A stretch of 64,000 bases of DNA from Paenirhodobacter ferrireducens (lineage in GTDB: Bacteria > Pseudomonadota > Alphaproteobacteria > Rhodobacterales > Rhodobacteraceae), in the NCBI RefSeq assembly GCF_004022265.1, contig NZ_SAVB01000016.1:62001-126000 (forward strand). Reading direction: 5' to 3'. The notes beneath the pieces were generated by a model. The model did no database searches. It saw only the letters and a list, made by a program, of their open reading frames with translations, and was not told the origin of the DNA. Positions 8,727 through 64,000 of the stretch are shown piece after piece (the first letter of the stretch is position 1; every line of letters begins with the position of its first letter). Position numbers and translations under genes: made by a program.

Positions 8727-9016
8727 GATCTTCTCCGCCGATTTTTGCGGGAACTGTGGCGTTTTGGCCGCGGAGTTCAAGGGCGCAAAACCGGCCTGCC
8801 GCCGAAATCGGGGCAAAATACACACCCCAGGAATATAAAATGTCCCGTGACGCCGGGTGAAATGACCGAAAATTAGGTCAGCACATATTATGCATTTTCT
8901 GCATGGCAGCATTGCAGCCCAGAGCTATTGTGCAGTTGCAGCATTGGCGCCATGTTTGCGTCAACAGCGATGGCAGAGAGGCCACCGCGACGAGATGAAG
9001 ACCAAAGGTTGAGACG
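8727..9016. other. Divergent intergenic region between mrp and the DUF1127/CcsR locus
   Basis: 290 bp without a convincing frame. It must hold promoters for both directions. It is AT-richer around 8800-8900 and contains a short direct repeat GCAGCATTG near 8906 and 8936. A possible heat-shock-type promoter for the rightward unit is listed separately. Confidence 0.6.
8928..8956 (+). promoter_or_regulatory. Candidate RpoH-type promoter for the DUF1127-CcsR unit
   Basis: TTGTGC (8928-8933), a 16-base spacer, then CCATGTT (8950-8956), resembling the CTTGAA/CCCATNT pattern of RpoH sigma factors. In R. sphaeroides the homologous DUF1127-CcsR unit is transcribed from an RpoHI/RpoHII-dependent promoter. 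The match here is weak and predicted only. Confidence 0.35.
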
Positions 9017-9220
9017 ATGGCTCTGGTTACCGACATCCGCACCGCCGACTTCGGCCTGGCGCAGCTGGTTGCCAGCTTCCGGGAAGGGATGGCGCGGCGC
9101 AAGGTGTTCCGCCAGACCCTGCGCGAGCTCAAGTCGCTTTCGGGCGCCGAGCTCGAAGACCTCGGGATCCATCGGTCGATGATCACCCGCGTGGCCCTCG
9201 AGGCTGCCTACGGCAAATGA
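9017..9220 (+). CDS. Small DUF1127 protein (CcaF1-like)
   Basis: 67 residues, basic, no signal or membrane segment. The C-terminal half carries the DUF1127 pattern: FRQTLRELKSLSGAELEDLG, followed by IHRSMITRVALEAAYG. DUF1127 proteins of about 45-70 residues are common in alphaproteobacteria. In R. sphaeroides the one encoded upstream of the CcsR RNAs (CcaF1) is reported to bind RNA and affect their maturation and C1/oxidative-stress responses. The immediate downstream CCTCCTCCC hairpin array makes this the likely counterpart. A short AAAGG precedes the ATG. The gene and RNAs are probably one transcript. Confidence 0.9.
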   Translation: MALVTDIRTADFGLAQLVASFREGMARRKVFRQTLRELKSLSGAELEDLGIHRSMITRVALEAAYGK

Positions 9221-9232
9221 GTTTCCCTTCCT

Positions 9233-9300
9233 GAGGCCCCTCCTCCTCCCTGGGCCTCGGAAATCGGCGGTGTCCTCCTCCTCCTCCCTGAGGGCACCGC
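9233..9300 (+). ncRNA. CcsR-like (cuckoo) RNA, copy 1
   Basis: Two adjacent stem-loops: stem GAGGCCC/GGGCCTC (9233-9239, 9252-9258) and an 11-bp stem (9267-9277 with 9290-9300, one G-U). Each displays the same 12-base loop CTCCTCCTCCCT. The loop contains the CCUCCUCCC anti-Shine-Dalgarno motif that defines the R. sphaeroides CcsR family. Begins 12 bases after the DUF1127 stop. Confidence 0.85.
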
Positions 9301-9350
9301 CACCCTATACCGGCCCCAGCCGCAAGGCACTGCCGGAAAGCCGATGCGAT

Positions 9351-9419
9351 GGCCCCCTCCTCCTCCCTGGGGTCTCGTAAAGAAGGCGGTGCCCTCCTCC
9401 TCCTCCCTGAGGGCACCGC
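9351..9419 (+). ncRNA. CcsR-like (cuckoo) RNA, copy 2
   Basis: Stem GGCCCC/GGGGTC (9351-9356, 9369-9374) and a perfect 11-bp stem GCGGTGCCCTC/GAGGGCACCGC (9386-9396, 9409-9419). Both loops are CTCCTCCTCCCT. The second hairpin closely matches that of copy 1, suggesting duplication; the interval before it (9301-9350) is the longest in the array. Confidence 0.85.
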
Positions 9420-9447
9420 GCTTTCTTCTCGGCGCGAGACTTGCGAA

Positions 9448-9510
9448 GGGCCATCCTCCTCCCGGCCCGTCGTGACAGGCGGCGACCCCCTCCTCCTCCC
9501 TGGGGTCGCC
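9448..9510 (+). ncRNA. CcsR-like (cuckoo) RNA, copy 3
   Basis: First hairpin is degenerate: 5-bp stem GGGCC/GGCCC (9448-9452, 9464-9468) with loop ATCCTCCTCCC. Second is strong: GGCGACCCC/GGGGTCGCC (9481-9489, 9502-9510) with loop CTCCTCCTCCCT. The CCUCCUCCC core is intact in both. Confidence 0.8.
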
Positions 9511-9525
9511 GTTCGACATACCGAA

Positions 9526-9588
9526 GGCCCCTCCTCCTCCCTGGGCCGACGGCTACGGTGCCGCTCACTCCTCCTCCCGAGCGGTGCC
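9526..9588 (+). ncRNA. CcsR-like (cuckoo) RNA, copy 4
   Basis: First hairpin GGCCC/GGGCC (9526-9530, 9543-9547) with loop CTCCTCCTCCCT. Second hairpin pairs 9557-9566 with 9579-9588 (10 bp including two G-U pairs) around the loop ACTCCTCCTCCC. Stem sequence is unrelated to copies 1-3 while the loop core is kept. Confidence 0.8.
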
Positions 9589-9599
9589 ACCCATACCAA

Positions 9600-9666
9600 G
9601 GCCCCCTCCTCCTCCCTGGGGTCATGGTTCGGACGGCGGCCCCCTCCTCCTCCCTGGGGCCGCCGT
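9600..9666 (+). ncRNA. CcsR-like (cuckoo) RNA, copy 5
   Basis: First hairpin GGCCCC/GGGGTC (9600-9605, 9618-9623). Second hairpin ACGGCGGCCCC/GGGGCCGCCGT (9633-9643, 9656-9666) is a perfect 11-bp stem followed by TTTCC, so it may also serve as the terminator of the whole array. Both loops are CTCCTCCTCCCT. Confidence 0.85.
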
Positions 9667-9760
9667 TTCCATTTCTGCCCCTCCCCATCTTCGCAAACCT
9701 GCATGCCCGCCCTTGCGGAGCGCATCGTGCGACGGCATTGAGGGGTGAACGGAGGAAGCC

Positions 9761-10558
9761 ATGCTGTCCTATCAACACATCTACCACGCCGGAAACTTGG
9801 CCGACGTGCACAAGCACGCCCTGCTTGCGGTGATGCTCGACTACATGACCCGCAAGGAAAAGCCGCTGAGCTATCTCGAGACCCATTCGGGCCGCGGGCT
9901 CTATGCGCTCGATGCGGCCGAAGCAGTGAAGACCGGCGAGGCCGCGGCCGGGATCGGGCGAGTGGAGAAGCTGGGCTGGTTCCCACCCGCCCATCCCTAT
10001 GCAAGGGCACTTGCCGCGGTGCGCACCGCGCATGGCGGGCGCGCCTATCCGGGCTCGCCCCTCATCGCGGCGAACCTGCTGCGCCCGATCGACTCGATCC
10101 AGCTATGCGAGCTGCACCCGCGCGAGTTCGAGGCCCTGCGCGCCGCGATGGCCCCTTTCGGTGGCGTGCTGCACCACAAGGACGGGCTCGAGATGGTGCA
10201 TGCGCTCACGCCGCCGACGCCGCGGCGCGGGCTTTTGCTGATCGACCCGAGCTGGGAAGTGAAAAGCGATTACGAGACGATCCCGAAGGTGCTGGGCCAG
10301 GTGGCACGCAAGTGGAACGTCGGCGTGATCGCGCTGTGGTATCCGGTGCTTGCCCCCACGGTCGCGGTGGCGCCGGCGCAGGCAGCGATGGTGCGCGCCC
10401 TGATGGCCGCGCATCCGGAGGCATTGCTGAGCGAAGTGCGCTTCCCGCCCGCCCGCGAGGGGCACGGGATGATCGGCTCGGGCATGTTCGTGCTGAACCC
10501 GCCCTGGGGGCTCGGCGACGAGGCCAATCGTCTGGCCAAGCTGTTCCGCAGCCTCTGA
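9761..10558 (+). CDS. rlmJ: RlmJ, 23S rRNA (adenine(2030)-N(6))-methyltransferase
   Basis: SAM-dependent enzyme that methylates A2030 of 23S rRNA. The 265-residue protein opens with the family signature MLSYQHIYHAGNLADVHKH and continues with the SAM-binding region LETHSGRGLYAL near residue 40. The catalytic N-DPPY-type motif reads LLLIDPSWE near residue 160, so the second proline and the tyrosine are replaced by Ser and Trp while the Asp is kept. A strong GGAGG lies before the ATG. It converges with the small secreted-protein gene on the other strand. Confidence 0.93.
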   Translation: MLSYQHIYHAGNLADVHKHALLAVMLDYMTRKEKPLSYLETHSGRGLYALDAAEAVKTGEAAAGIGRVEKLGWFPPAHPYARALAAVRTAHGGRAYPGSPLIAANLLRPIDSIQLCELHPREFEALRAAMAPFGGVLHHKDGLEMVHALTPPTPRRGLLLIDPSWEVKSDYETIPKVLGQVARKWNVGVIALWYPVLAPTVAVAPAQAAMVRALMAAHPEALLSEVRFPPAREGHGMIGSGMFVLNPPWGLGDEANRLAKLFRSL

Positions 10559-53777: not shown

Positions 53778-53823
53778 AAAAACTCCACGGCCGGACAGCG
53801 GGGCCCCGCTGGGGGCCCGGCCC
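53778..53823 (-). terminator. Terminator of the tmm-dmm operon
   Basis: On the minus strand a GC-rich hairpin (outer GGCCGG with CCGGCC, inner palindrome AGCGGGGCCCCGCT at 53797-53810) is followed, after a short gap, by five Ts (53782-53778). It starts a few bases after the dmmC stop. Confidence 0.65.
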
Positions 53824-53827
53824 CGGA

Positions 53828-54868
53828 TCAGTCCGGGAAGATGCCCGGCGAGGTCGGCGCGCCATCGTCGAAGGGCGCGAGATAGTCGAGGATCACCGGG
53901 CGGTTCACCGCGAAGCCCTTGTATTCGGCCAGTTCGTCCGGCAGGTCGCGCAGCACCCGGTGCAGCCGGCGGCCCCATTTCGGCACCGTCACGAGATCCT
54001 CGAGCGAGCACAGATAGCAGCGGATCGGGAAGGCGATGGCGTTCGAGCGCGGCAGCCGCCAGAGCGTCTGCAGCTCGACCCGCAGGTATTGCTTGGCGCC
54101 GACGTTGCCCGGCGCGACGGTGCGCTTCTCCGGGCCCCATTTGTGGTAGTTCTCGGGGCTGGTGTCGAGCCGCGGGTTCACCGTCATCGTCCAGTTCAGC
54201 CGCCGCGAGGGCGCGCCCTGCTGCAGGTTCAGGAGGAACTTCAGCGCGCGCTGGAACACCCCCAGCTCATGCGCCTTCGGCACCGGCGCGTGCCACTCGA
54301 AGAAGTTCATGCCGATGTCGAAATCAAGCGACCAGTCGGCCTGGCTCGTCACCATGCCGGCATCCATCCACAGGTTGCCGTCGCGCTGGTCGAGAAGCGC
54401 ATGGTCGCCCTGGGTCTGGCGGGTGATGTATTCCATCGGCCCGCAGGGCAGCGTGGTGGCATCGAGGAAGGTGAAGCGCTGCTCGATGCCGAGCGGGCGG
54501 TTGATCCAGTGCCAGCGGTCGCCGTCACGGTTCAGCATGAAAAGCTCGGGGTAATCCTCGGATTTCGAGACCATCACGAGTTCGAGGAAATCCCAGCCCG
54601 CCAGCTCCATATGCGGCAGCGACTGGCAACGCAGCGGGTCCTCGGCCAGCGTGATCGCGCGGTCGCGCATCTCGGCGACGTAATGCTCGTCGACGTCGAA
54701 GCGCTTCTCGAAGGGCGATCCGGCCTTGCCGCCCGCGTGCGGCTCGAGGTTGACCGAATACATGTAGCTGTCCTGGTCGAAGGGGAACGGGAAGCGCCGG
54801 ATCCCCTCGGGCGAGTTGTGGAAGGTGTAGTCGTCGCGGAAGGTTTCGTCGTGGAACTGGATGGTCAT
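53828..54868 (-). CDS. dmmC: DUF3445 heme-dependent oxidative N-demethylase subunit (dimethylamine monooxygenase)
   Basis: 346-residue protein of the DUF3445 family, the catalytic-type subunit of dimethylamine monooxygenase (dimethylamine to methylamine plus formaldehyde). Recognisable segments are PFPFDQDSYMYSVNLEP near residue 25, FLELVMVSKSEDYPELFML near 95, the WHWINRPLGIEQRFTF stretch, and RVELQTLWRLPRSNAIAFPI near 265. Last gene of the run; nine bases after the reductase. The A/B/C letters follow gene order D-A-B-C and may differ between published schemes. Confidence 0.82.
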   Translation of the reverse strand: MTIQFHDETFRDDYTFHNSPEGIRRFPFPFDQDSYMYSVNLEPHAGGKAGSPFEKRFDVDEHYVAEMRDRAITLAEDPLRCQSLPHMELAGWDFLELVMVSKSEDYPELFMLNRDGDRWHWINRPLGIEQRFTFLDATTLPCGPMEYITRQTQGDHALLDQRDGNLWMDAGMVTSQADWSLDFDIGMNFFEWHAPVPKAHELGVFQRALKFLLNLQQGAPSRRLNWTMTVNPRLDTSPENYHKWGPEKRTVAPGNVGAKQYLRVELQTLWRLPRSNAIAFPIRCYLCSLEDLVTVPKWGRRLHRVLRDLPDELAEYKGFAVNRPVILDYLAPFDDGAPTSPGIFPD

Positions 54869-54877
54869 CCGTGCCTC

Positions 54878-55825
54878 CTAGAGGTCGAGAACGAGGGTTT
54901 CGCCGGTGAACCGCGAAACGCAGGGCATGATCTTCGTCTGACTCGCGCGCTCGTCGTCGCTCAGCCAGTGGTCGTGGTGCTCGATCGTGCCGTGACAGGC
55001 ATGCACCCCGGTCTCGCAGCGCCCGCAGGCACCACCGCGGCACATCCACTCGACCTCGACCTCGGCTTGTTCCAGCGCCTCGAGCAGGCTCTGATGCGGA
55101 CCGACGGTGACCACCTTGCCGGTCTTCGCCAGCGTCACGTCGAAGGGCGCGCCGGGCGGCGGCGCCATGAAGACCTCGGAATGCAGCACCGTCTTCGGCC
55201 AGCCGAGCCGCGCGCCGGTCTCGGCCACCGCCTCGATCAGGCCCTCGGGGCCGCAGGTATAGACATGGGTGCCGAGCGGCTGGCTGCCCAGAATGGCGCC
55301 CAGATCCATCCGGTTGCCCTCCTCCGAGACATGCACATGCACCTGCGGCGAGGCGGGCAGCAGGGCAAGACCCGCGGCCTCGGCGCGGCTCCGCGCGGCA
55401 TAATGCAGCTCGAACGGCATCTGCAGGCGCGCAAGCTGTTTCAGCTGCGCAAGGAAGGGCGTGATGCCGATCCCCCCCGCGATCATCACATGTTTCTTCG
55501 CCCGCAGATCGAGCGAGAACAGGTTCACCGGAGCGGAGATGCGCATCAGATCGCCCAAGGCAACCTTGGTGTGCATGAAGCGCGAGCCACCGCGGCCGCC
55601 ATCCTCGCGCCGCACGGCGATCTCATAGCCCGAACCATCCATCGGATCGGAGATCAGCGAGTAGGCGTTGCGACGCAGAACGCCCGCGTCTGGCATTTCG
55701 ACGACCACATGCGCGCCGCCGGAGAAGAGCGGCAGCAATGCGCCCTCCGGGTCCTCGAAGCGGAAGCGGGTGACGAGGGGCGAGAGTGTCTCGATCGCGC
55801 TCACGCGCAGCAGGCGGCTGGTCAT
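54878..55825 (-). CDS. dmmB: Ferredoxin-NAD(P) reductase subunit of dimethylamine monooxygenase
   Basis: 315-residue phthalate-dioxygenase-reductase-type protein. FMN/FAD-binding RRNAYSLISDP near residue 52, NAD-binding AGGIGITPFLAQL near residue 117, CGPEGLIEAV near 207, and a C-terminal plant-type [2Fe-2S] ferredoxin with CRGGACGRCETGVHAC near residue 268. It passes electrons to the oxygenase subunit. Overlaps dmmA by ATGA. A single missing ligand is not evident: a fourth Cys follows in IMPCVSRF. Confidence 0.88.
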   Translation of the reverse strand: MTSRLLRVSAIETLSPLVTRFRFEDPEGALLPLFSGGAHVVVEMPDAGVLRRNAYSLISDPMDGSGYEIAVRREDGGRGGSRFMHTKVALGDLMRISAPVNLFSLDLRAKKHVMIAGGIGITPFLAQLKQLARLQMPFELHYAARSRAEAAGLALLPASPQVHVHVSEEGNRMDLGAILGSQPLGTHVYTCGPEGLIEAVAETGARLGWPKTVLHSEVFMAPPPGAPFDVTLAKTGKVVTVGPHQSLLEALEQAEVEVEWMCRGGACGRCETGVHACHGTIEHHDHWLSDDERASQTKIMPCVSRFTGETLVLDL

Positions 55826-56424
55826 GGTTTGATCTCCTGCACTTCGGGCACGATGCCGGGGGTCTCGGCATCGACGCAGACGCCCTGGAAGGCGCCGAGG
55901 CGGCGCGAGAAATGGTCGCGCACGAAAAGGGTGAGGCCGCAATGGCTGCACAGGAAGGGGTCGATGGTGACATTCTCGGTCACGCCCTTGCAATGCACGC
56001 ATTGCATCCGCCGCGCGATCGTGCCGCGGTGCTCGGTCTGGATCGCCTCGGGCGGCAGGCCCGCGGCCAGCGCCTCGGCCACGGCCTGACCGATCATTCC
56101 CTCGGAGCCGGCGAGGTAAAGCGTCGTGCCCATCCGGGCATCGGCGAGTGCCTTGCGATAGCGCTCGAGCGCGGAGGCATAGCTCGGCGCCTCGCGATAC
56201 ATCTTCGCGCCAAGCGCGGCGAGGCGGAGCCCCGCGTCATGGCCCGCGGGGATATAGATCAGATGGGCGAGATCCATCACCGAGGCATCGAGCGCGGCGA
56301 GGTCGAGGATCGCCTCGGCGCCCGGCCCTTCGGCAAGCATGATCGCCGGGGTGGCGCCCTGCGGGGTGAGCCCGGGATAGACCGGACGCGAGGTGATCGA
56401 GGGGGAGAATTCGGTGCGCGGCAT
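55822..56424 (-). CDS. dmmA: Dimethylamine monooxygenase subunit DmmA-like (Cys-rich)
   Basis: 200 residues. The first 140 look like a small alpha/beta domain (ATPAIMLAEGPGAEAILDL and TLYLAGSEGMIGQAVAEAL). The last 60 hold a zinc- or rubredoxin-like pair CVHCKGVTE and CSHCGLTLFV. This matches the DmmA family found with the DUF3445 and reductase genes. Start MPRTEFSPSIT follows AGGAAGC. It overlaps dmmB (ATGA) and follows dmmD after 59 bp containing a GGGGCGG/CCGCCCC hairpin. Confidence 0.78.
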   Translation of the reverse strand: MPRTEFSPSITSRPVYPGLTPQGATPAIMLAEGPGAEAILDLAALDASVMDLAHLIYIPAGHDAGLRLAALGAKMYREAPSYASALERYRKALADARMGTTLYLAGSEGMIGQAVAEALAAGLPPEAIQTEHRGTIARRMQCVHCKGVTENVTIDPFLCSHCGLTLFVRDHFSRRLGAFQGVCVDAETPGIVPEVQEIKP

Positions 56425-56483
56425 GGCATGCTTCCTGTTGGGTCTGGGTGGGGCGGTCTGCCGCCGCCCCTGCCCGTTTCGCA

Positions 56484-57620
56484 TCAGCCCTTGGCGGTGC
56501 GGCGCGTCTTCTCGATGTCGAAGAAGGGCATCGGCGAGGTCACGGCGCCGATCGTGCCGGCCTCGGTGCTCTCGACGGTGAGGGGCATGCCCTCGACCGC
56601 GCAGTCGACCGGCAGGCGGGCGATGGCGACGGTCCAGTCGTTCAGCGGCGAATACATCGCCTGGGTCACGACGCCGACCGTCACCCCGTCCTTCAGCACC
56701 GGCGCGCCGTTCTCGGGCGGCACCTTGCCCTCGAGCTTGAGGCCCCAGATCTTGAAGCGCTCCTTGCCCTTCAGACGGTAATGCTCTTCCGCGCCGCGGA
56801 AGCCGGTCTTGCCGGGCGAGACGGTGAAATCGAGACCCAGCTCCCACAGCGTGTCGCCGCAGGGCTCGTTCTCGAACGGATACATCTCGGAGTTGTCGTA
56901 GGGGAAGAAGAGCAGATAGCTTTCGGTGCGCAAGAGGTCGAGCGTGGTGAAGCGGCACGGGATGATGCCCATCGCCGCGCCCTCCTCGACGATGCGGTCC
57001 CAGATCATCGGCGCATCCTGGCCGCGCACGAACAGCTCGTAGCCGCGCTCGCCGGTATAACCGGTGCGCGCGATCAGCGCCGGCACACCGAAAAGCGAGG
57101 TGGGCATGTGGCTGAAATAGTTCAGGCTGCGGATGCCCGGCACGTATTTCTCGAGGAAATCGACGGCGAGCGGGCCTTGCAGCGACAGGTCATGCAGGTT
57201 GTCGTCAAAGCGGATCGAGACATCGCGGCCGGTCGCGGCCATGGTCAGCTGCTCGAAGCCCTGGCCCGAGCCATGCACCACCATGAAGGCGTTCGGCGCG
57301 GTGCGGTAGATCACGCAGTCGTCGACGAACTTGCCCGCATCGTTCAGCATGCAGGCATAGACCGCGCGGCCCGGCATCAGCTTCTCTACATTGCGCGTGG
57401 TGGCACGGTCGATGACATGGCTTGCCGCCGGTCCGGTGATGTGGACCTTCTTCAGCCCCGAGACATCCATCAGCCCGGCCTTCGTCCGGATCGCCATGTA
57501 CTCGGCGAGCGGATCGCCGTCATAGGACCAGGCGGTGCCCATCCCGCTCCAGTCTTCCAGCGCGGAGCCGAGCGCGCGGTGCCGGTCGGCCAGCGTCGAA
57601 AATCTCCAAGATGCGGTCAT
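56484..57620 (-). CDS. dmmD: DmmD, GcvT-like folate-dependent aminomethyltransferase family protein
   Basis: 378-residue protein with the GcvT/DMGDH-C fold: AGLMDVSGLKKVHITGPAA near residue 48, FDDNLHDLSLQGPLA near 145, ARTGYTGERGYELFV near 180 and GLKLEGK in the C-terminal barrel. GcvT-like proteins bind tetrahydrofolate. In Ruegeria pomeroyi dmmD is needed for growth on methylated amines although DmmABC alone shows activity, so a role in capturing formaldehyde onto folate is likely. Paralogous to the C-terminal half of Tdm upstream. Confidence 0.83.
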   Translation of the reverse strand: MTASWRFSTLADRHRALGSALEDWSGMGTAWSYDGDPLAEYMAIRTKAGLMDVSGLKKVHITGPAASHVIDRATTRNVEKLMPGRAVYACMLNDAGKFVDDCVIYRTAPNAFMVVHGSGQGFEQLTMAATGRDVSIRFDDNLHDLSLQGPLAVDFLEKYVPGIRSLNYFSHMPTSLFGVPALIARTGYTGERGYELFVRGQDAPMIWDRIVEEGAAMGIIPCRFTTLDLLRTESYLLFFPYDNSEMYPFENEPCGDTLWELGLDFTVSPGKTGFRGAEEHYRLKGKERFKIWGLKLEGKVPPENGAPVLKDGVTVGVVTQAMYSPLNDWTVAIARLPVDCAVEGMPLTVESTEAGTIGAVTSPMPFFDIEKTRRTAKG

Positions 57621-57653
57621 GTTCGTTTCCTTGTCCTGTCAGTCGTTGGGAAA

Positions 57654-57678
57654 GCCGCGGGCGGGGACCGCCCGCGGC
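57654..57678 (-). terminator. Intercistronic hairpin between the microprotein and dmmD
   Basis: Perfect 11-bp stem GCCGCGGGCGG/CCGCCCGCGGC with a 3-base loop, followed on the minus strand by TTTCCC. Probably a partial terminator or a 3'-end stabiliser for the upstream tmm-tdm-amtB segment. Confidence 0.6.
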
Positions 57679-57686
57679 GGTCAGGC

Positions 57687-57866
57687 TCAGTGATGGCCGG
57701 TCTTCGCCGCCTCATAGGCGTGCTTCTCGTGGCGCCAGCCGAGGATCACGGCGACGAGCACGCAGAGGTAGCAAAGCGCGATCCAGAAGAATTCCGAATT
57801 GCCATAGCCCGCGTAGATCGCCCCGGTGATGCCGTCCCAGGTGTGGGTGGTGAAGGGTGCTTCCAT
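57687..57866 (-). CDS. 59-residue single-TM microprotein next to the Amt transporter
   Basis: Too short for routine ORF lists but well supported. It has a perfect AAGGAG eight bases before the ATG, lies 26 bp after the amtB stop and is bracketed by operon genes. Sequence: polar start (MEAPFTTHTWDGITGAIY), one transmembrane helix (FFWIALCYLCVLVAVILG) with two cysteines, and a charged His-rich tail (WRHEKHAYEAAKTGHH). No family recognised. It could be a small accessory subunit of the methylammonium channel or of the amine oxidation complex. Confidence 0.72.
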   Translation of the reverse strand: MEAPFTTHTWDGITGAIYAGYGNSEFFWIALCYLCVLVAVILGWRHEKHAYEAAKTGHH

Positions 57867-57892
57867 GGTGGTCTCCTTTTCGGATCAGAGGC

Positions 57893-59272
57893 TTATTCAG
57901 CCGGGGTGACGGTGGGATGCAGCGCTTCGGGATAGGCCGAGGCGGGAACCTTGGTCTTGTCGAGGCCGAGGATCTCGGCTTCGGCGGGCACGCGCAGTTG
58001 CCCCATCGCCTTCAGCACCCAGGACAGGCCGTAGCCGGGGAAGAAGCCGAGCGCGATCATCACCAGCGCGCCGACCAGCTGGCCGAGGAACGAGGTGTCG
58101 ATGGTGCTTTCGCCCGCCAGCGCCGGATAGCCCTGCGCTGCGATGCCGACGACGATCACGCCCCAGAAGCCGAGATACATGTGCACGGCGACCGCGCCGA
58201 CCGCGTCGTCGATCTTCAGCCGCTCGACGAAGGAGGAGACGAAGGGCATCGTCGCCGCCCCGAAGAAGCCGATCACGAAGGCCATCGGCGGATACCACAG
58301 ATCCAGCCCCGCCGCGCAGGAGATGATGCCGCCCAGCGCGCCCGACATCATCCAGAACGGATCGCGGGTGATCATCCACGCCCCGATGATGCCGCCGGCC
58401 ATGCCCATCAGCGTGTTGAAGGTCATCCCCGACAGCGTCATCGGCGTGCCGTAGATCGTGTTGAAGGACGAGGTCGACCACGACCAGGTCTCGCCCGGGA
58501 CGATCACGCAGCCCATGAGGAAGCCCCAGAAGCCGGCGATGATCAGCATCAGCCCCACAAGCGTCATCGGCATCGAGTGACCGGGGATCGCGTTCGCGGT
58601 GCCGTCGGCGTTGAACTTGCCGATGCGCGGCCCGAGGTTAATGACCACGCCCAGCGTGAAGGCGCCGGCGATCAGGTGCACGACGCCGGCGGCGCCGAAG
58701 TCATGATAGCCGAACTTGGTGACCAGCCAGCCATCCGCGTGCCAGCCCCAGGCGGCGGCGAGGATCCAGATGAAGCCGCCCAGCACCGTCGCCAGAACGA
58801 CGAAGCCGGTCAGGCGAATACGCTCGATCAGCGCGCCCGACAGGATCGAGGCGGTGGTGGCGGCGAACATCACGAAGGCCCCCCAGAACACGCCGTTCGA
58901 GCGGTCGTCGAGGTTCGGCCCCATGAATTCCGACCAGGGGGCAGCGACCGAATTCGCATAGTCGAGACCGGAGATGCCGGCCGGACCCGCGGACAGGTCG
59001 AAGCCCGTCGGGAAGGCCCAGTAGATCCACCATCCGACGAAGTAGAAGAACGGCACGATCATCGCGAAGGCGAGGATGTTCTTGATGCCGGAGGCCAGCG
59101 CGTTCTTCGAGCGCGACGCGCCCATCTCATAGGCGAGGAACCCGACATGGATCAGCACCATGAGCGGGATGGTCAGAAAGTAGAAGGTCTCGGAGAAGGT
59201 GGTGCCGGTGGCGGCCGCCTTCGCCTTCAGTTCGGCGACTGTCGCCGCCAGTGTTGCAAGGTCCTGTTCCAC
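57893..59272 (-). CDS. amtB: AmtB-family ammonium/methylammonium channel
   Basis: 459 residues with about eleven transmembrane helices. The first conserved pore His is in FGAAGVVHLIAG near residue 195 and the second in VGAVAVHMYLGFWG near residue 365; the WGWHADGW and PGHSMPM segments are present. A helical N-terminal extension (EQDLATLAATVAELKAKAAA) precedes helix 1, unlike classic AmtB, and no glnK gene is adjacent. Start at GTG (59272) with GGGAG seven bases upstream. Its position inside the methylated-amine operon suggests uptake of methylamines or retention of released ammonium. Confidence 0.88.
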   Translation of the reverse strand: MEQDLATLAATVAELKAKAAATGTTFSETFYFLTIPLMVLIHVGFLAYEMGASRSKNALASGIKNILAFAMIVPFFYFVGWWIYWAFPTGFDLSAGPAGISGLDYANSVAAPWSEFMGPNLDDRSNGVFWGAFVMFAATTASILSGALIERIRLTGFVVLATVLGGFIWILAAAWGWHADGWLVTKFGYHDFGAAGVVHLIAGAFTLGVVINLGPRIGKFNADGTANAIPGHSMPMTLVGLMLIIAGFWGFLMGCVIVPGETWSWSTSSFNTIYGTPMTLSGMTFNTLMGMAGGIIGAWMITRDPFWMMSGALGGIISCAAGLDLWYPPMAFVIGFFGAATMPFVSSFVERLKIDDAVGAVAVHMYLGFWGVIVVGIAAQGYPALAGESTIDTSFLGQLVGALVMIALGFFPGYGLSWVLKAMGQLRVPAEAEILGLDKTKVPASAYPEALHPTVTPAE

Positions 59273-59383
59273 GTCCAAACTCCCTGTTGAGTGGAAGGGG
59301 GCTGTTTTCGCCCCGTTTTCTTGCCTCCCCACCCGGTTTCCCGGGGTCTTCGGCCGGGTCTCCCCTCCCGGCCCGCCACCCCC

Positions 59384-61756
59384 TCACGAGCGCGGACGTT
59401 CCTTTTTCGGGTCGTAATGTGGGAAGGGCGCGACCCGCGCCGCGATCCGCTTCAGATGCCCGTCAAGCTTGCCGATCTCGACCGCGGTGCCGGGCCCGGC
59501 ATGGGCGACGTCGAGGCGCGCGAGCGCGATCCACTGGTTGGTGCGGGGGCTGTGCATGGCCGAGCAGATCTCGCCCACCTGCGCGCGGCCGATCCGCACG
59601 CAGTCGCCGTGAAAGACCGGATCCTGGCCCTCGATCTCGAGGCCGACGAACTTGCGCGCGGGCGTCTCCTTGCGCCGGATCAGCGCGTCGCGCCCGACGA
59701 AATCGGCGGTTTTCGATTTCAGCGGCACGGTGAAGCCGATGCCGGCCTCGAACGGGTCGGTCTGATCGGAAAAGTCATAGCCCGCGAAGACGAGCCCCGC
59801 CTCGATCCGGCACAGGTCAAGCCCCGCAAGCCCCATCGGCTTGATGCCGAACTTGGCACCCGCGCCGAAGACCGCCTCGAAGACCGCCTTGCCGTCCTTC
59901 GGGTGGCAGAAGATCTCGTAGCCCAGCTCCCCGGTATAGCCGGTGCGCGACACCACGACCGGCACCCCCTCGGCCCCGCCGATGCGCCCCACGGTGAAGC
60001 GGAACCAGCCCAGATCGGCCAAAGCGGGCTGATGCGGTGCGGTCCAGATGATCTCGCACATCAGCTCGCGCGAGCGCGGCCCCTGCACCGCGAGATTGTG
60101 CATCTGATCGGTCGAGGCACGGATCATCACGTTCAGGCCAAGCCGCGCCGCCTCCTCGCGCATCCAGACCCCGCCCTCGTCCGAGCCGCCGATCCAGCGG
60201 AAGTTCTGCGGCCCGAGACGGAACAGCGTGCCGTCGTCGATCATGCCGCCATGCGGATAGCACATGGCCGAATAGACGACCTGACCATGGCCCAGCTTCG
60301 TCACGTCGCGCGTCAGAACCCAGTTCATCAGCGCCTCGGCGTCGGGGCCGGTCACCTCGAACTTGCGCAGCGCGCTCAGGTCCATCGCGACCACGCCCTC
60401 GCGCGCCGCCCAGTAGCTTTCCACCGCATCACACTCGGGGAAGACATTCGGCAGCCAGAAGCCGCGATATTCGACGAAATCGCGGGTCAGGGCAGCAAAA
60501 CTGTCGTGGAAGGCGCTTTCACGCGTCATGATCGGCTCCGCGTCGGGGGTGGCGCGCCAGGCCGAAGCGCGCGAGAACCGCTCGCCCGCGCCATAGCTGC
60601 GCACATGAATGTCGGTGAGATCCCAGCCATTGGCCGAGGAGGTGTCGTCCGGGCAGGCCGAGGAGACGCAGACAAGATCGGTCAGCGCGCGCAGCAGCAC
60701 GTAATCGCCGGGCCGCGACCAGGGCTCGTCGGCGACCAGCACGCCATGCGCGTCGATCCCGGTGTTGAAGAAGAAGTTCGCCGCCATCCAGCCCGCGCGG
60801 GCGGGAACCCCATGGGCGGCCAGCGCGGTATTGAAATTGTCCGAGCAGTTCGCATGCCCCGGATAGCCGATGTCGTCGTAATATTTCGACGAGCAGGCCA
60901 TGGCGAAGGCGTCGTGGCGGCCACAGGTGTCCTGAATCACCTCGACCAGCGGGGTGAAATCCTGGTCATAGTATTTCGCGTGCAGCCCCGGGTTCGGATA
61001 GGCGTGCCCCATCAGCGTGCGGGTGGTGGTGACGTCGAGCGGATTGACGATGCCCCGGTCGAGCTTCCTCGCATCGAAGCACTGGAAATCGGTGCATTGC
61101 CGCCCGTCGACGTCGAGGATCTGGATGAACTCGCCCGCCTTCACCACATAGGCCTCGGCGGTCGCCGATGTCACCCGCAGATCAAGGAGCGGATCGGCCA
61201 GCGGGTCGGGCAGCGCGAAGCGGCCCGCGGCGCGCGGCGTGGCGCGGGTGATCTTCACCGTCAGCGGGGTCGCGGTGTCCTGGGCCTCGAAATCCATCAC
61301 CGGGCCCGGGGCGGCGACGATCGCGACGCCCGCGCCCTGTGCGGTGAAGCCCACGGCCTCGCCCGCCCGCGATCCGGCGCCGAAAAGCCCGATGGCGCGG
61401 GCGAGGCTCAGGTCGATGCCGCGGCGGTCAAGCGCGCGGCGCAGCCGGGCAAGCGAGGGCTCGCCCGAGGCGAGCAGCTCGCGCAGCCCCTCCGCCGCGC
61501 AATCGCCCGCCCAGCCCAGAAGGCCGCAGTCGACCCGCCCGTCGGGGTGCGCGGCCAGCAGCTCGCAGCGCTGCCCGCCCTCGTCGTTGATCACCTCGAT
61601 CCGGTCGCCCGCCCGGATCTCGAATACCAGCGCGCCACGACCGGGCACGGCATGCCGCTCCTCGGCCGGTCCGGTCCGATAGGCCTGCGGCCGCCGCGCA
61701 CGCGAGGGCGTGGGCGGTCCGGGGCGGAAAAGCGTGTCGGCGGGCAGAAGCACCAT
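59384..61756 (-). CDS. tdm: Tdm, trimethylamine N-oxide demethylase
   Basis: 790-residue bifunctional enzyme splitting TMAO to dimethylamine and formaldehyde. N-terminal DUF1989 region (about 170-400) carries three zinc cysteines at residues 288, 304 and 368 (in MACSSKYYDD, HANCSDN and SSACPDD). Their spacing of 16 and 64 equals that reported for the Methylocella enzyme. The C-terminal half (about 430-780) is a GcvT-like tetrahydrofolate domain (SRTGYTGELGYEIFC, FVGLEIEG) that captures the formaldehyde. The first about 40 residues are basic and Pro-rich. Follows tmm after a terminator-like hairpin. Confidence 0.93.
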   Translation of the reverse strand: MVLLPADTLFRPGPPTPSRARRPQAYRTGPAEERHAVPGRGALVFEIRAGDRIEVINDEGGQRCELLAAHPDGRVDCGLLGWAGDCAAEGLRELLASGEPSLARLRRALDRRGIDLSLARAIGLFGAGSRAGEAVGFTAQGAGVAIVAAPGPVMDFEAQDTATPLTVKITRATPRAAGRFALPDPLADPLLDLRVTSATAEAYVVKAGEFIQILDVDGRQCTDFQCFDARKLDRGIVNPLDVTTTRTLMGHAYPNPGLHAKYYDQDFTPLVEVIQDTCGRHDAFAMACSSKYYDDIGYPGHANCSDNFNTALAAHGVPARAGWMAANFFFNTGIDAHGVLVADEPWSRPGDYVLLRALTDLVCVSSACPDDTSSANGWDLTDIHVRSYGAGERFSRASAWRATPDAEPIMTRESAFHDSFAALTRDFVEYRGFWLPNVFPECDAVESYWAAREGVVAMDLSALRKFEVTGPDAEALMNWVLTRDVTKLGHGQVVYSAMCYPHGGMIDDGTLFRLGPQNFRWIGGSDEGGVWMREEAARLGLNVMIRASTDQMHNLAVQGPRSRELMCEIIWTAPHQPALADLGWFRFTVGRIGGAEGVPVVVSRTGYTGELGYEIFCHPKDGKAVFEAVFGAGAKFGIKPMGLAGLDLCRIEAGLVFAGYDFSDQTDPFEAGIGFTVPLKSKTADFVGRDALIRRKETPARKFVGLEIEGQDPVFHGDCVRIGRAQVGEICSAMHSPRTNQWIALARLDVAHAGPGTAVEIGKLDGHLKRIAARVAPFPHYDPKKERPRS

Positions 61757-61795
61757 GGTCTGTCCTTGCAGTGAGGGAAAAAGGCTGGGCCGTCA

Positions 61796-61830
61796 GGGAA
61801 AAGAAGGCGGGAGGCCCGAGGCCCCCCGCC
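61796..61830 (-). terminator. Terminator-like hairpin between tmm and tdm
   Basis: On the minus strand GGCGGGGGGCC-TCG-GGCCTCCCGCC (61830-61806; 11-bp stem with one G-U) followed by TTCTTTT. It lies 16 bases after the tmm stop. It may lower tdm expression relative to tmm or protect the tmm 3' end. Confidence 0.65.
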
Positions 61831-61845
61831 CAGGGGGGACACAGC

Positions 61846-63189
61846 TCAGTTCGCCAGATAGGCTTCCATCGAATCGTCGAGGGCGTCCTTCCACGGCGTG
61901 TGGTGGGTGGGCGCCATCGTGCCGGTGATGACCGACTTGTAGGCGTGGTTGCGGAAGGTCATGATGTTTTCCGCCTTGTGGTGCTTCCACTCGAAGAAGG
62001 CCTCGCAGGCGCCATCGACGTCGAAGGACGGATAATCCGTCTCGGCGATCAGTTCCTTGACGTAGTCGCCCTGATACTTGATCGCGTATTTGACGTCGTC
62101 CGAGGCCTCTTCGCGTTCCTCGCGCTCGGCCACGTCGGCGATCAGCGTCTGCTTGTCGGCGGGCACCTCGATCCGGCCCATGATGATGTCGCGGACATAC
62201 CAGGCCTGGGCGTCGAACATGTTGAAGGTGAACCACTGGTCCTGCATGCCGAGGTAGAACATCTTCGGATTGTGGACATAGACCACGCCCTTGTAGAGGT
62301 CGGCGGTCGCCAGCCGGTTCGCCGTCTTCAGCCGCAGGCTGTCGGGCAGGAACGGGAAGTAGTGCTTGTAGCCGGTGCACAGGATGATCGCGTCGATATG
62401 CTTCGACGAGCCGTCCTTGAAGAAGGCGGTCTTGCCCTCGACGCGCACGAGGCCCTGCTTCTCTTCCCAGTTCGCCGGCCATTTGAAGCCCATCGGCGCG
62501 GTGCGATAGCAGGAGGTGACGCTTTTCGCGCCGTATTTCCAGCACTGCGAGCCGATGTCCTCGGCCGAATAGGAGGAGCCGACGATCAGCACGTCCTGCC
62601 CCTCGAATTCGCGCGCGTCGCGGAAATCATGGGCGTGGACGATGCGGCCGTAGAACTGGTCGAAGCCCGGATATTCCGGCACGTTCGGCGAGGAGAAGTG
62701 GCCCGAGGCGACGATCACGTGATCGAAGCGCTCCTTGTAGACGTGGTCGCGTTCCATGTCGTGCGCGGTGACGGTGAAATCCCCGGCCTCCTCGTCGAAC
62801 TCGATCCAGCGCACGACCGAGTTGAAGCGGATCCAGCCGCGCACGCCAGCCTTGTTCACCCGGCCCTCGATGTAATCGACCATCACGGCGCGCGGCGGAT
62901 AGGAGGCGATCTGCTTGCCGAAATGTTCCTCGAAGGAATAGTCGGCGAATTCGAGCCCCTCCTTCGGACCGTTGGTCCAGAGGTAGCGATACATCGAACC
63001 GTGGATCGGCTCGCCGTTCTTGTCGGTGCCGGTGCGCCAGCTGTAGTTCCACAGCCCCCCCCAGGTCTCCTGCTTCTCGAAGCAGACGATCTCGGGAATC
63101 TCGGCCCCCTTCTGCGCGGCGGACTGGAAGGCCCGGAGCTGGGCAAGGCCCGAAGGGCCGGCACCGATGATGGCAACGCGTTTGGTCAT
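61846..63189 (-). CDS. tmm: Tmm, trimethylamine monooxygenase
   Basis: 447-residue flavin-containing monooxygenase that oxidises trimethylamine to the N-oxide with NADPH and oxygen. FAD-binding [10 protein letters not shown] near residue 9, the FMO signature [13 protein letters not shown] near residue 188, and NADP-binding [11 protein letters not shown] near residue 208. Conserved aromatic-rich C-terminal half ([19 protein letters not shown]) is typical of bacterial Tmm. AGGGAGACTACC precedes the ATG. First gene of the operon. Confidence 0.95.
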
Positions 63190-63361
63190 GGTAGTCTCCC
63201 TGTTCGATCCGGTATGGACCAGATTTCAAAACTGGTTCCTTCGGCATGAACCAATGAGGTGAGCCAAAATCCTTCAGGTCAACAAATTTTCCTGTGTGGA
63301 ATATTGCTTCACCGCCTTTTTCGGCATTCCAGCCTGCCGGAAAAGGGCTATAGATCAAATT
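63190..63361. promoter_or_regulatory. Divergent promoter region tmm / PBP-like gene
   Basis: 172 bp, AT-rich. Near the tmm side, ACCAG (63218-63222) and CTGGT (63232-63236) form an inverted repeat with a 9-base spacer, embedded in GGACCAG...CTGGTTCC, with another GAACC half-site at 63248. This suggests an operator for a GntR- or similar dimeric regulator between the two transcription units. No open frame is present. Confidence 0.5.
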
Positions 63362-64000
63362 ATGAGCAGCCCGACACTCGCGCAGCGCCTTCTGGTAACT
63401 GGTTCCCTGCCCCGACTCGGCGTGAAGACCCGCGCGCCGGTGCGGATCGGTTTCCTCACGCCGCTCTCCGGGCCCGAGGAATCCTGGGGTCGGCCGGGGC
63501 TCGACGGCTGCCGGCTCTGGGCCGAGGGGCTGAATGCGCGCGGCGGGCTGATGGTGGGCGGGCGCCGGCACCCGATCGAGATCGTGGCACGCGACAGTGC
63601 GACCGGGGCCGCCGCGACCCGCGCCGCCGCGCACGAGCTTGTCGAACGGCTCGGCTGCCGGCTGATCCTGACCCTTGGCGGCGACAGCTTCGCCCCCGCC
63701 CTGCCCTGGCTGATGAAGACCCGCGCGCTGGTCGCGACGCTGCTGCCCTCCGACCTCTCGCCTGACACGCCCTATCTGATCGCGCCGGCCGAGGTGCATC
63801 CGCTGTTCAACGTGACCGGGGTCGAGTGGCTGGCGAAGAGCCGTCCCGCGGCGCGGCGTGTCGCCCTGTGCAGCCAGACCGACAGCCTCGGCCTGCCCTC
63901 GCTTGCCGTCTATCGCGCCGCCTTCGAGGCTGCGGGCCATGCCCGGGTGAAGGAGCTGCGCTATGCCCCCGCCGAGACCGACGCGGAAGGCATCGTGCGC
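63362..64000 (+). CDS. Type 1 periplasmic-binding-protein homologue without signal peptide (partial)
   Basis: Open from the ATG at 63362 to the window end (213 codons). VRIGFLTPLSGPEESWGRPG near residue 28, GLDGCRLWAEGLNARGG and the later VALCSQTDSLGLPSLAVYRAAFEAAG match branched-chain amino-acid/amide-type ABC substrate-binding proteins (UrtA/AmiC group). The N-terminus (MSSPTLAQRLLVTGSLPRLG) has no hydrophobic signal core, so this copy is probably cytoplasmic, like AmiC, which senses amides. Divergent placement beside tmm supports a sensor role in amine metabolism. The rest of the gene is outside the window. Confidence 0.75.
   Translation, partial: MSSPTLAQRLLVTGSLPRLGVKTRAPVRIGFLTPLSGPEESWGRPGLDGCRLWAEGLNARGGLMVGGRRHPIEIVARDSATGAAATRAAAHELVERLGCRLILTLGGDSFAPALPWLMKTRALVATLLPSDLSPDTPYLIAPAEVHPLFNVTGVEWLAKSRPAARRVALCSQTDSLGLPSLAVYRAAFEAAGHARVKELRYAPAETDAEGIVR

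Follow-up and report, generated by a model that had tools for sequence, protein, structure and literature searches.

We identify, in the 64-kb stretch of DNA analyzed here (the window), an array of ten hairpins located immediately downstream of a short gene of the DUF1127 family. This locus is a ccaF1-CcsR (cuckoo RNA, CIN1) arrangement, that is, a locus of an already known kind, and its ten motif copies are normal for the group. The best explanation for the array, to which we assign a probability of about 0.87, is that it gives rise to processed RNAs that would block the translation of metabolic mRNAs. Membership in the CcsR/cuckoo RNA family, as put forward in the original prediction made from the same DNA, is borne out by the presence of CCUCCUCCC in all ten loops, covariation in the stems, the order of the array and the DUF1127 gene, and the promoter sequence.

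The motif CCTCCTCCC occurs ten times in the window, each time on the plus strand and within positions 9242-9654 (first bases at 9242, 9280, 9359, 9399, 9455, 9492, 9533, 9570, 9608, and 9646), with a chance expectation of 0.84 copies per window (mean of 100 shuffles; maximum, 5). When the array is read as a series of hairpins, all ten copies lie in the loops; eight of the ten loops are identical (CTCCTCCTCCCT), and the remaining two are ATCCTCCTCCC (hairpin 9448-9468) and ACTCCTCCTCCC (hairpin 9557-9588). The motif-bearing hairpins span 438 bp (9231-9668), in agreement with the predicted ten stem-loops in about 430 bp, eight of them with the same loop. Folded as a single RNA, the region 9221-9690 reaches -223.5 kcal/mol, compared with -177.8 kcal/mol (sd 6.4) for 100 shuffles (z -7.1), and all ten motif loops remain unpaired in this fold.

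Consecutive motifs are separated by 38, 79, 40, 56, 37, 41, 37, 38, and 38 bases. The predicted division of the array into five two-hairpin units (Table 1) holds: the first pairs are evident from the plain motif spacing, and the last two pairs are assigned by stem type, with a short first and a long second stem, and by the covariance-model matches described below. The first hairpin of a pair has an inner stem of 5-9 bp, often extended past a mismatch, and the second has a stem of 10-13 bp. Hairpin 9448-9468, previously taken for a decaying copy, folds as a mismatched two-part stem (5-bp inner stem, 1x1 mismatch, 6-bp outer stem), and the entire unit 3 to which it belongs shows no differences from the corresponding sequence of Sinirhodobacter hankyongi, which argues against decay. 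The last hairpin of the array (9631-9668), which is followed by a T-rich stretch, may be a terminator; a terminator scan limited to loops of 3-8 found none. A coding reading of the array was considered as well, given that several open reading frames cross it on both strands, but the compensatory changes in the stems speak for RNA.

Table 1. Features of the array locus, with positions in the window, and genes preceded by GGGAGGA sites
Feature	Position	Strand	Details
Upstream element ATGCA-N5-TGCAT-GGCAGCATTG	8890-8914	+	Partly conserved, just upstream of the promoter
Predicted RpoH-type promoter	8928-8956	+	TTG at 8928-8930 (-36 to -34), A-12 at 8952, T-9 at 8955, start near 8964
ccaF1-like DUF1127 gene, 67 aa	9017-9220	+	PF06568, E 1e-10
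CcsR-like unit 1	9231-9301	+	Hairpins 9231-9260 and 9266-9301; model match 9225-9308, 81.6 bits
CcsR-like unit 2	9351-9419	+	Hairpins 9351-9374 and 9386-9419; model match 9342-9427, 80.6 bits
CcsR-like unit 3	9441-9513	+	Hairpins 9448-9468 (outer stem to 9441-9475) and 9478-9513; model match 9439-9520, 67 bits
CcsR-like unit 4	9526-9588	+	Hairpins 9526-9547 and 9557-9588; model match 9516-9595, 54.5 bits, lowest of the five
CcsR-like unit 5	9600-9668	+	Hairpins 9600-9623 and 9631-9668; model match 9591-9674, 87 bits
rlmJ-type gene	9761-10558		On the other side of the array
GGGAGGA site gene: PDH E1 alpha (pdhA)			TIGR03182, above cut-off
GGGAGGA site gene: PDH E2			Best match TIGR01349, fragment below cut-off
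GGGAGGA site gene: PQQ methanol/ethanol-family dehydrogenase			TIGR03075, fragment below cut-off
GGGAGGA site gene: ABC binding protein at the PQQ dehydrogenase locus			TIGR03863, fragment below cut-off
GGGAGGA site gene: formate dehydrogenase gamma (fdsG)			NF004638, above cut-off

Because no family in Rfam 15 matches the window at the gathering score, a covariance model was built from relatives. The training set consisted of 60 two-hairpin units from 31 named loci, excluding the window and S. hankyongi, and these units were selected on a motif spacing of 36-42 and stems of at least 5 and at least 10 bp. In the resulting alignment, 93.3% of the cells pair, two-sided compensatory changes are found at all 17 pairs, and none of five measures was matched by 500 shuffles or by sliding the partners, although these counts lean towards structure because the units were chosen for their stems. 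For a fairer test, without stem selection, we used 343 distinct stems that carry the exact loop, representing 439 hairpins from 75 loci, the window included; pairing exceeded that in all 500 shuffles at stem positions 2-12 and was not above the shuffles at stem position 1.

With the window excluded from training, the model gives each of the five window units a score of 54-87 bits, which agrees with their prediction as units of the CcsR type. In a search of the whole window, units 1, 2, 3, and 5 were listed, unit 4 was recovered only when searched alone with the filters off, and four extra matches elsewhere in the window were at chance level (E 0.62 to 6.3). The search of the complete genome of the window species, with scoring of 150 out of 3024 first-look candidates, yielded four matches at E 0.001, all within the array. 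Four more CTCCTCCTCCC sites are found in this genome, on contigs C5, C13, C25, and C57, none of them with a model match at E 0.001: the sites on C25 and C57 are stemless, the one on C13 has a possible 5-bp stem that is absent from the best fold, and the one on C5 has a stem of 5-7 bp. By model search, there is no array near the three other DUF1127 genes of this genome.

The DUF1127 gene, predicted as the partner of the array and identified as such by its PF06568 match, ends ten bases before the first hairpin on the same strand, and a Mrp-type gene lies upstream in the divergent orientation. At the level of the promoter sequence, the predicted RpoHI/RpoHII control appears plausible: the putative promoter fits the rules described for R. 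sphaeroides, where the TTG, A-12, and T-9 positions matter for RpoHI/RpoHII (PMC3441632), and the TTG and CATnTT columns are invariant in all 16 upstream sequences compared (the window and 15 relatives from several genera). In the same 16-sequence alignment, ATGCA and the GCA of the second half of the upstream element are invariant and the rest is variable; this element is unique in the window when 3 mismatches are allowed. A sigma-70 scan produced one weak promoter match, at 8862-8891. Separately, a family search with ten open reading frames of the window allowed one to be named, an RNA helicase; several of these frames are probably on the wrong strand.

Using a 15-protein alignment of DUF1127 orthologs, we obtained 80 named loci, the best 80 of 136, among which the nearest relative is S. 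hankyongi (91%). Of these 80 loci, 79 carry exact motifs 3' of the CcaF1 relative in the same orientation as the gene, and just one motif in the whole set lies on the opposite strand. The motif count in these loci is 8 in 21, 10 in 16, 7 in 12, 9 in 9, 11-16 in 6, and 0-6 in 16, numbers that are approximate because a few loci lie at contig ends, two loci are contigs of one species, and loops that deviate from the exact motif are missed. Within the genus of the window species, DUF1127 orthologs are present in 15 of 18 genomes, the window genome included, and are then accompanied by 7 to 10 motifs, with ten in 5 of the 15. With ten motifs in 16 and 11-16 motifs in 6 of the best 80 of 136 loci, and ten in one-third of the orthologs of the genus, five units are therefore ordinary, and the special expansion of the array proposed originally finds no support in the comparison of copy number across relatives. 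In a wider sample, at least one motif pair was detected in 71 of 147 genomes, a count to be read with the qualification that the backwards control also matches some genomes, partly inside arrays, and that chance may explain a few of the single pairs detected outside the family.

A very large array of 16 motifs is found in Pseudotabrizicola sediminis (L086), and 14 motifs are present in a Cereibacter-like genome (L021, G067:C4:691717-692334), the CcaF1 of which is 98.6% identical to that of C. johrii; in the latter array, five copies with an identical 48-nt stretch follow each other in 114-115-bp steps, a recent tandem amplification. One very large run (G023:C38:282135-282743) holds 14 of the 15 motif pairs listed for its genome. 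In G056, motif pairs are spread over contigs C16, C17, C62, and C63, perhaps representing dispersed cuckoo-type RNAs in addition to the C63 array.

The variation in copy number, from 0 to 16 among the best 80 of 136 loci, together with the tandem copies in G067, could suggest that such arrays are by-products of DNA repeat dynamics (tandem duplication), with a copy number of little functional consequence. We consider this the least probable of the explanations weighed here: compensatory changes maintain the stems, the motif spacing is the same in the window species and S. hankyongi (L065), and, in ungapped comparison between these two, 8 of 438 positions differ in the array (98.2% identity) and 19 of 204 in the DUF1127 gene (90.7% identity). 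That the array changes less than the adjacent coding sequence also counts in favor of the CcsR interpretation.

The association with the gene is not universal. In two close relatives, G003 and G016, the genomes of which are 99% and 100% complete, we found no CcaF1 match at E 0.001, so the protein is not always present. Both genomes keep the promoter and the array, with 8 and 9 motifs, respectively, adjoining the same Mrp-type gene (L367, G003:C7:51000-53000; L368, G016:C67:49500-51497), and no DUF1127 reading frame is located between the promoter and the array. In the pdhA tree, G003 and G016 branch successively outside the pair formed by the window species and S. hankyongi (support 0.93 and 0.77), so that, if this tree is right, two losses of ccaF1, or one loss and a regain, would be needed. 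Among 30 loci of the wider sample, a CcaF1-like gene is present at all 18 with at least four motifs (at L037 over 31 residues only) and at 3 of the 12 with two or three motifs, being absent at the other 9. The genomes that lack ccaF1 provide a natural test of the need for the RNA-binding protein in RNA maturation.

These genomes also bear on the alternative that the hairpins are only a structured 3'UTR, which would shield the DUF1127 mRNA from exonucleases and end transcription, with no role of the loops in trans. Such a function would explain why, in 79 of the best 80 of 136 loci, the motif lies 3' of the gene in the same orientation, and the last hairpin could terminate transcription, but it is at odds with the retention of the array without the gene in two genomes. 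Moreover, the stems vary around a fixed 9-nt loop core (the core was the search term, so that its fixity is partly selected), whereas a barrier needs no such loop, and for NfeR1 trans action of this loop has been reported (PMC10746234). We therefore regard a purely structural role as very improbable.

Under the ccaF1-CcsR interpretation, we infer the following course of events, from transcription and processing to pairing in the cell, dosage, and regulatory outcome. An RpoHI/RpoHII-type stress promoter at about 8928-8956 most likely drives a single transcript that would encode the DUF1127 protein and contain the five two-hairpin RNAs in its 3' part. RNase E would then probably process this transcript into small RNAs, a step in which the DUF1127 protein would take part. 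Every hairpin would expose in its loop an anti-Shine-Dalgarno sequence, mostly CUCCUCCUCCCU; the stems could drift provided that pairing stays, with the loop remaining fixed. The loops are predicted to pair with ribosome-binding sites of the GGGAGGA type and could thereby block the translation of a set of metabolic mRNAs, the best candidates being those of pdhA, PDH E2, the PQQ methanol/ethanol-family dehydrogenase locus, and fdsG, and the extra copies might contribute dosage and redundancy. For R. sphaeroides, CcsR1-4 have been reported to derive from the ccaF1 3'UTR, with RNase E and CcaF1 acting in their maturation, to be destabilized by PNPase, and to be induced by oxidative stress (PMC8625941, PMC7866481, PMC8307010, PMC10253847), as well as to modulate C1 metabolism and PDH (PMC8625941, PMC10253847).

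The many identical loops resemble those of sponge RNAs, and titration of a protein, as raised in the original prediction, could be the function of the array, with the DUF1127 protein itself, Hfq, or a CsrA-like protein as the target. Sponge RNAs of the CsrA/RsmA type are defined by GGA in hairpin loops; GGA is absent from all ten loops of the array, so a CsrA-type sponge does not fit and the titrator idea is not borne out. The other two potential targets draw some support from R. sphaeroides, where CcaF1 is described as RNA-binding and CcsR1-4 as Hfq-dependent (PMC10253847, PMC7866481), but NfeR1, which carries CCUCCUCCC loops, has been reported to silence ntrB at the ribosome-binding site, and a variant mutated in three loops no longer lowered the ntrB reporter (PMC10746234). 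A protein decoy is, in our assessment, improbable.

The complement of seven loop bases, GGGAGGA, is the Shine-Dalgarno sequence of pdhA and other genes, which is consistent with the predicted anti-Shine-Dalgarno nature of the loops. In the genome of the window species, GGGAGGA is located 4-11 bases before an ATG at 122 places, compared with 9 for the reversed pattern. Five of the sites fall within 10.5 kb at the PQQ dehydrogenase locus (P 0.034 for a cluster of this kind at any place in the genome, by simulation with the size of the counting interval set after the cluster had been seen), where the neighboring genes encode a LuxR-type response regulator, a FIST protein, and a hybrid histidine kinase. 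Across the genus, GGGAGG is present upstream of pdhA in all 18 genomes and GGGAGGA in 7 of them. GGGAGGA also precedes the PQQ dehydrogenase gene in all ten orthologs with a readable start, that of the window species among them; one further ortholog is cut, and 7 of the 18 genomes have no match to this enzyme at E 1e-60. The bases that flank the GGGAGG(A) sites differ across the genus. Calculated duplexes between the loop and these sites reach -14 to -18 kcal/mol, compared with -10 kcal/mol for an invented canonical site and -7 kcal/mol for the DUF1127 gene of the array itself.

These sites fit direct targeting and the published effects of CcsR on C1 metabolism and PDH; the PDH and C1 genes were picked out on viewing the site list, and the CcsR literature had named both pathways before. 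Alternatively, GGGAGGA could be kept simply as a strong ribosome-binding site, and the orthologs share ancestry. A more far-reaching version of the CcsR interpretation, which we offer only tentatively and consider rather doubtful, is that the loops act directly, rather than solely by way of a regulator, on the ribosome-binding sites of PDH and of the PQQ dehydrogenase locus, that the genus has kept GGGAGG(A) for this purpose, and that the array, not CcaF1, is the conserved core of the locus, the latter because two close relatives without the protein keep both promoter and array. A literature search for CcsR in connection with flhR/methanol dehydrogenase or with anti-Shine-Dalgarno copy number returned nothing on CcsR among the matches listed. 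The new elements of this work are the GGGAGGA sequences at pdhA, PDH E2, PQQ dehydrogenase, and fdsG, which make up a short, testable list of candidate direct targets, and the maintenance of the array and promoter without ccaF1 in two close relatives.

A bias of the sites towards transporter genes was considered but is unproven. At the 30 sites that head the list, 7 of 27 open reading frames were transporter parts, against 1 of 24 at the AAAGGA control site (3 of 30 target and 6 of 30 control loci were dropped, with open reading frames <60 aa). A second sample, with 52 target and 47 control open reading frames (8 of 60 and 13 of 60 loci dropped), did not confirm the bias; the families listed for it included DctQ in two members on the target side (25 of 51 listed) and solute-binding families in two, ABC_tran in two, and a permease in one on the control side (25 of 54 listed). 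Together, the samples covered 90 of the 122 target sites and 90 of the 193 control sites, following the order of the list; for the second sample, 60 sites of each kind were hand-picked from the listed remainder, excluding double listings and some contig-end sites.

A regulatory link to the methylated-amine C1 locus of the same genome had also been proposed. Such a locus is indeed present in the window at about 53.8-63.9 kb (53820-63940), with genes for dimethylamine monooxygenase, an ammonium transporter, and aminomethyltransferase, identified by their similarity to Falsirhodobacter, Paracoccus, and Thioclava plasmids, but the proposed link is weak: the locus contains no GGGAGGA 4-11 bases before an ATG. 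One gene of the locus, at 54868(-), has AGGAGG, which is complementary to the loop over 6 nt but equally a common ribosome-binding site. The only two window genes with GGGAGGA before the ATG encode a Sel1-repeat protein (19979(-)) and a DJ-1/PfpI protein (22680(+)). The genes for PQQ dehydrogenase, formate dehydrogenase, and PDH are better candidates for the connection to C1 metabolism than those of the methylated-amine locus.

Among known systems, NfeR1 of Sinorhizobium meliloti (alpha-r14 family) shares the redundant CCUCCUCCC loops with the window array (PMC10746234) but, unlike it, has three hairpins, is under the transcriptional control of LsrB and NtrC, and is described as Hfq-independent. 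The array also resembles the alphaproteobacterial cuckoo RNA family/CIN1, including SmelA075 and SmelA099, in its modular hairpins with a fixed CCUCCUCCC loop, variable stems, and variable number of modules (PMC3927594); SmelA075 and SmelA099, however, are separate RNAs with three or four hairpins, whereas in the window ten hairpins follow one gene. With CcsR1-4/ccaF1 of Rhodobacter (Cereibacter) sphaeroides it shares two-hairpin RNAs 3' of a short DUF1127 gene, a promoter of the RpoHI/RpoHII type, and a probable terminator hairpin (PMC10253847, PMC3927594). In contrast to the four units of R. sphaeroides, the window has five predicted units, and its DUF1127 protein has 67 aa, compared with 71 aa in R. 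sphaeroides, and is 54% identical to the C. johrii protein. In C. johrii, used as a stand-in for R. sphaeroides, the same method recovers eight hairpins, that is, four units (L107). Covariation and gene order support a distribution of CcsR-type arrays that extends far outside R. sphaeroides, the number of units varying between species.
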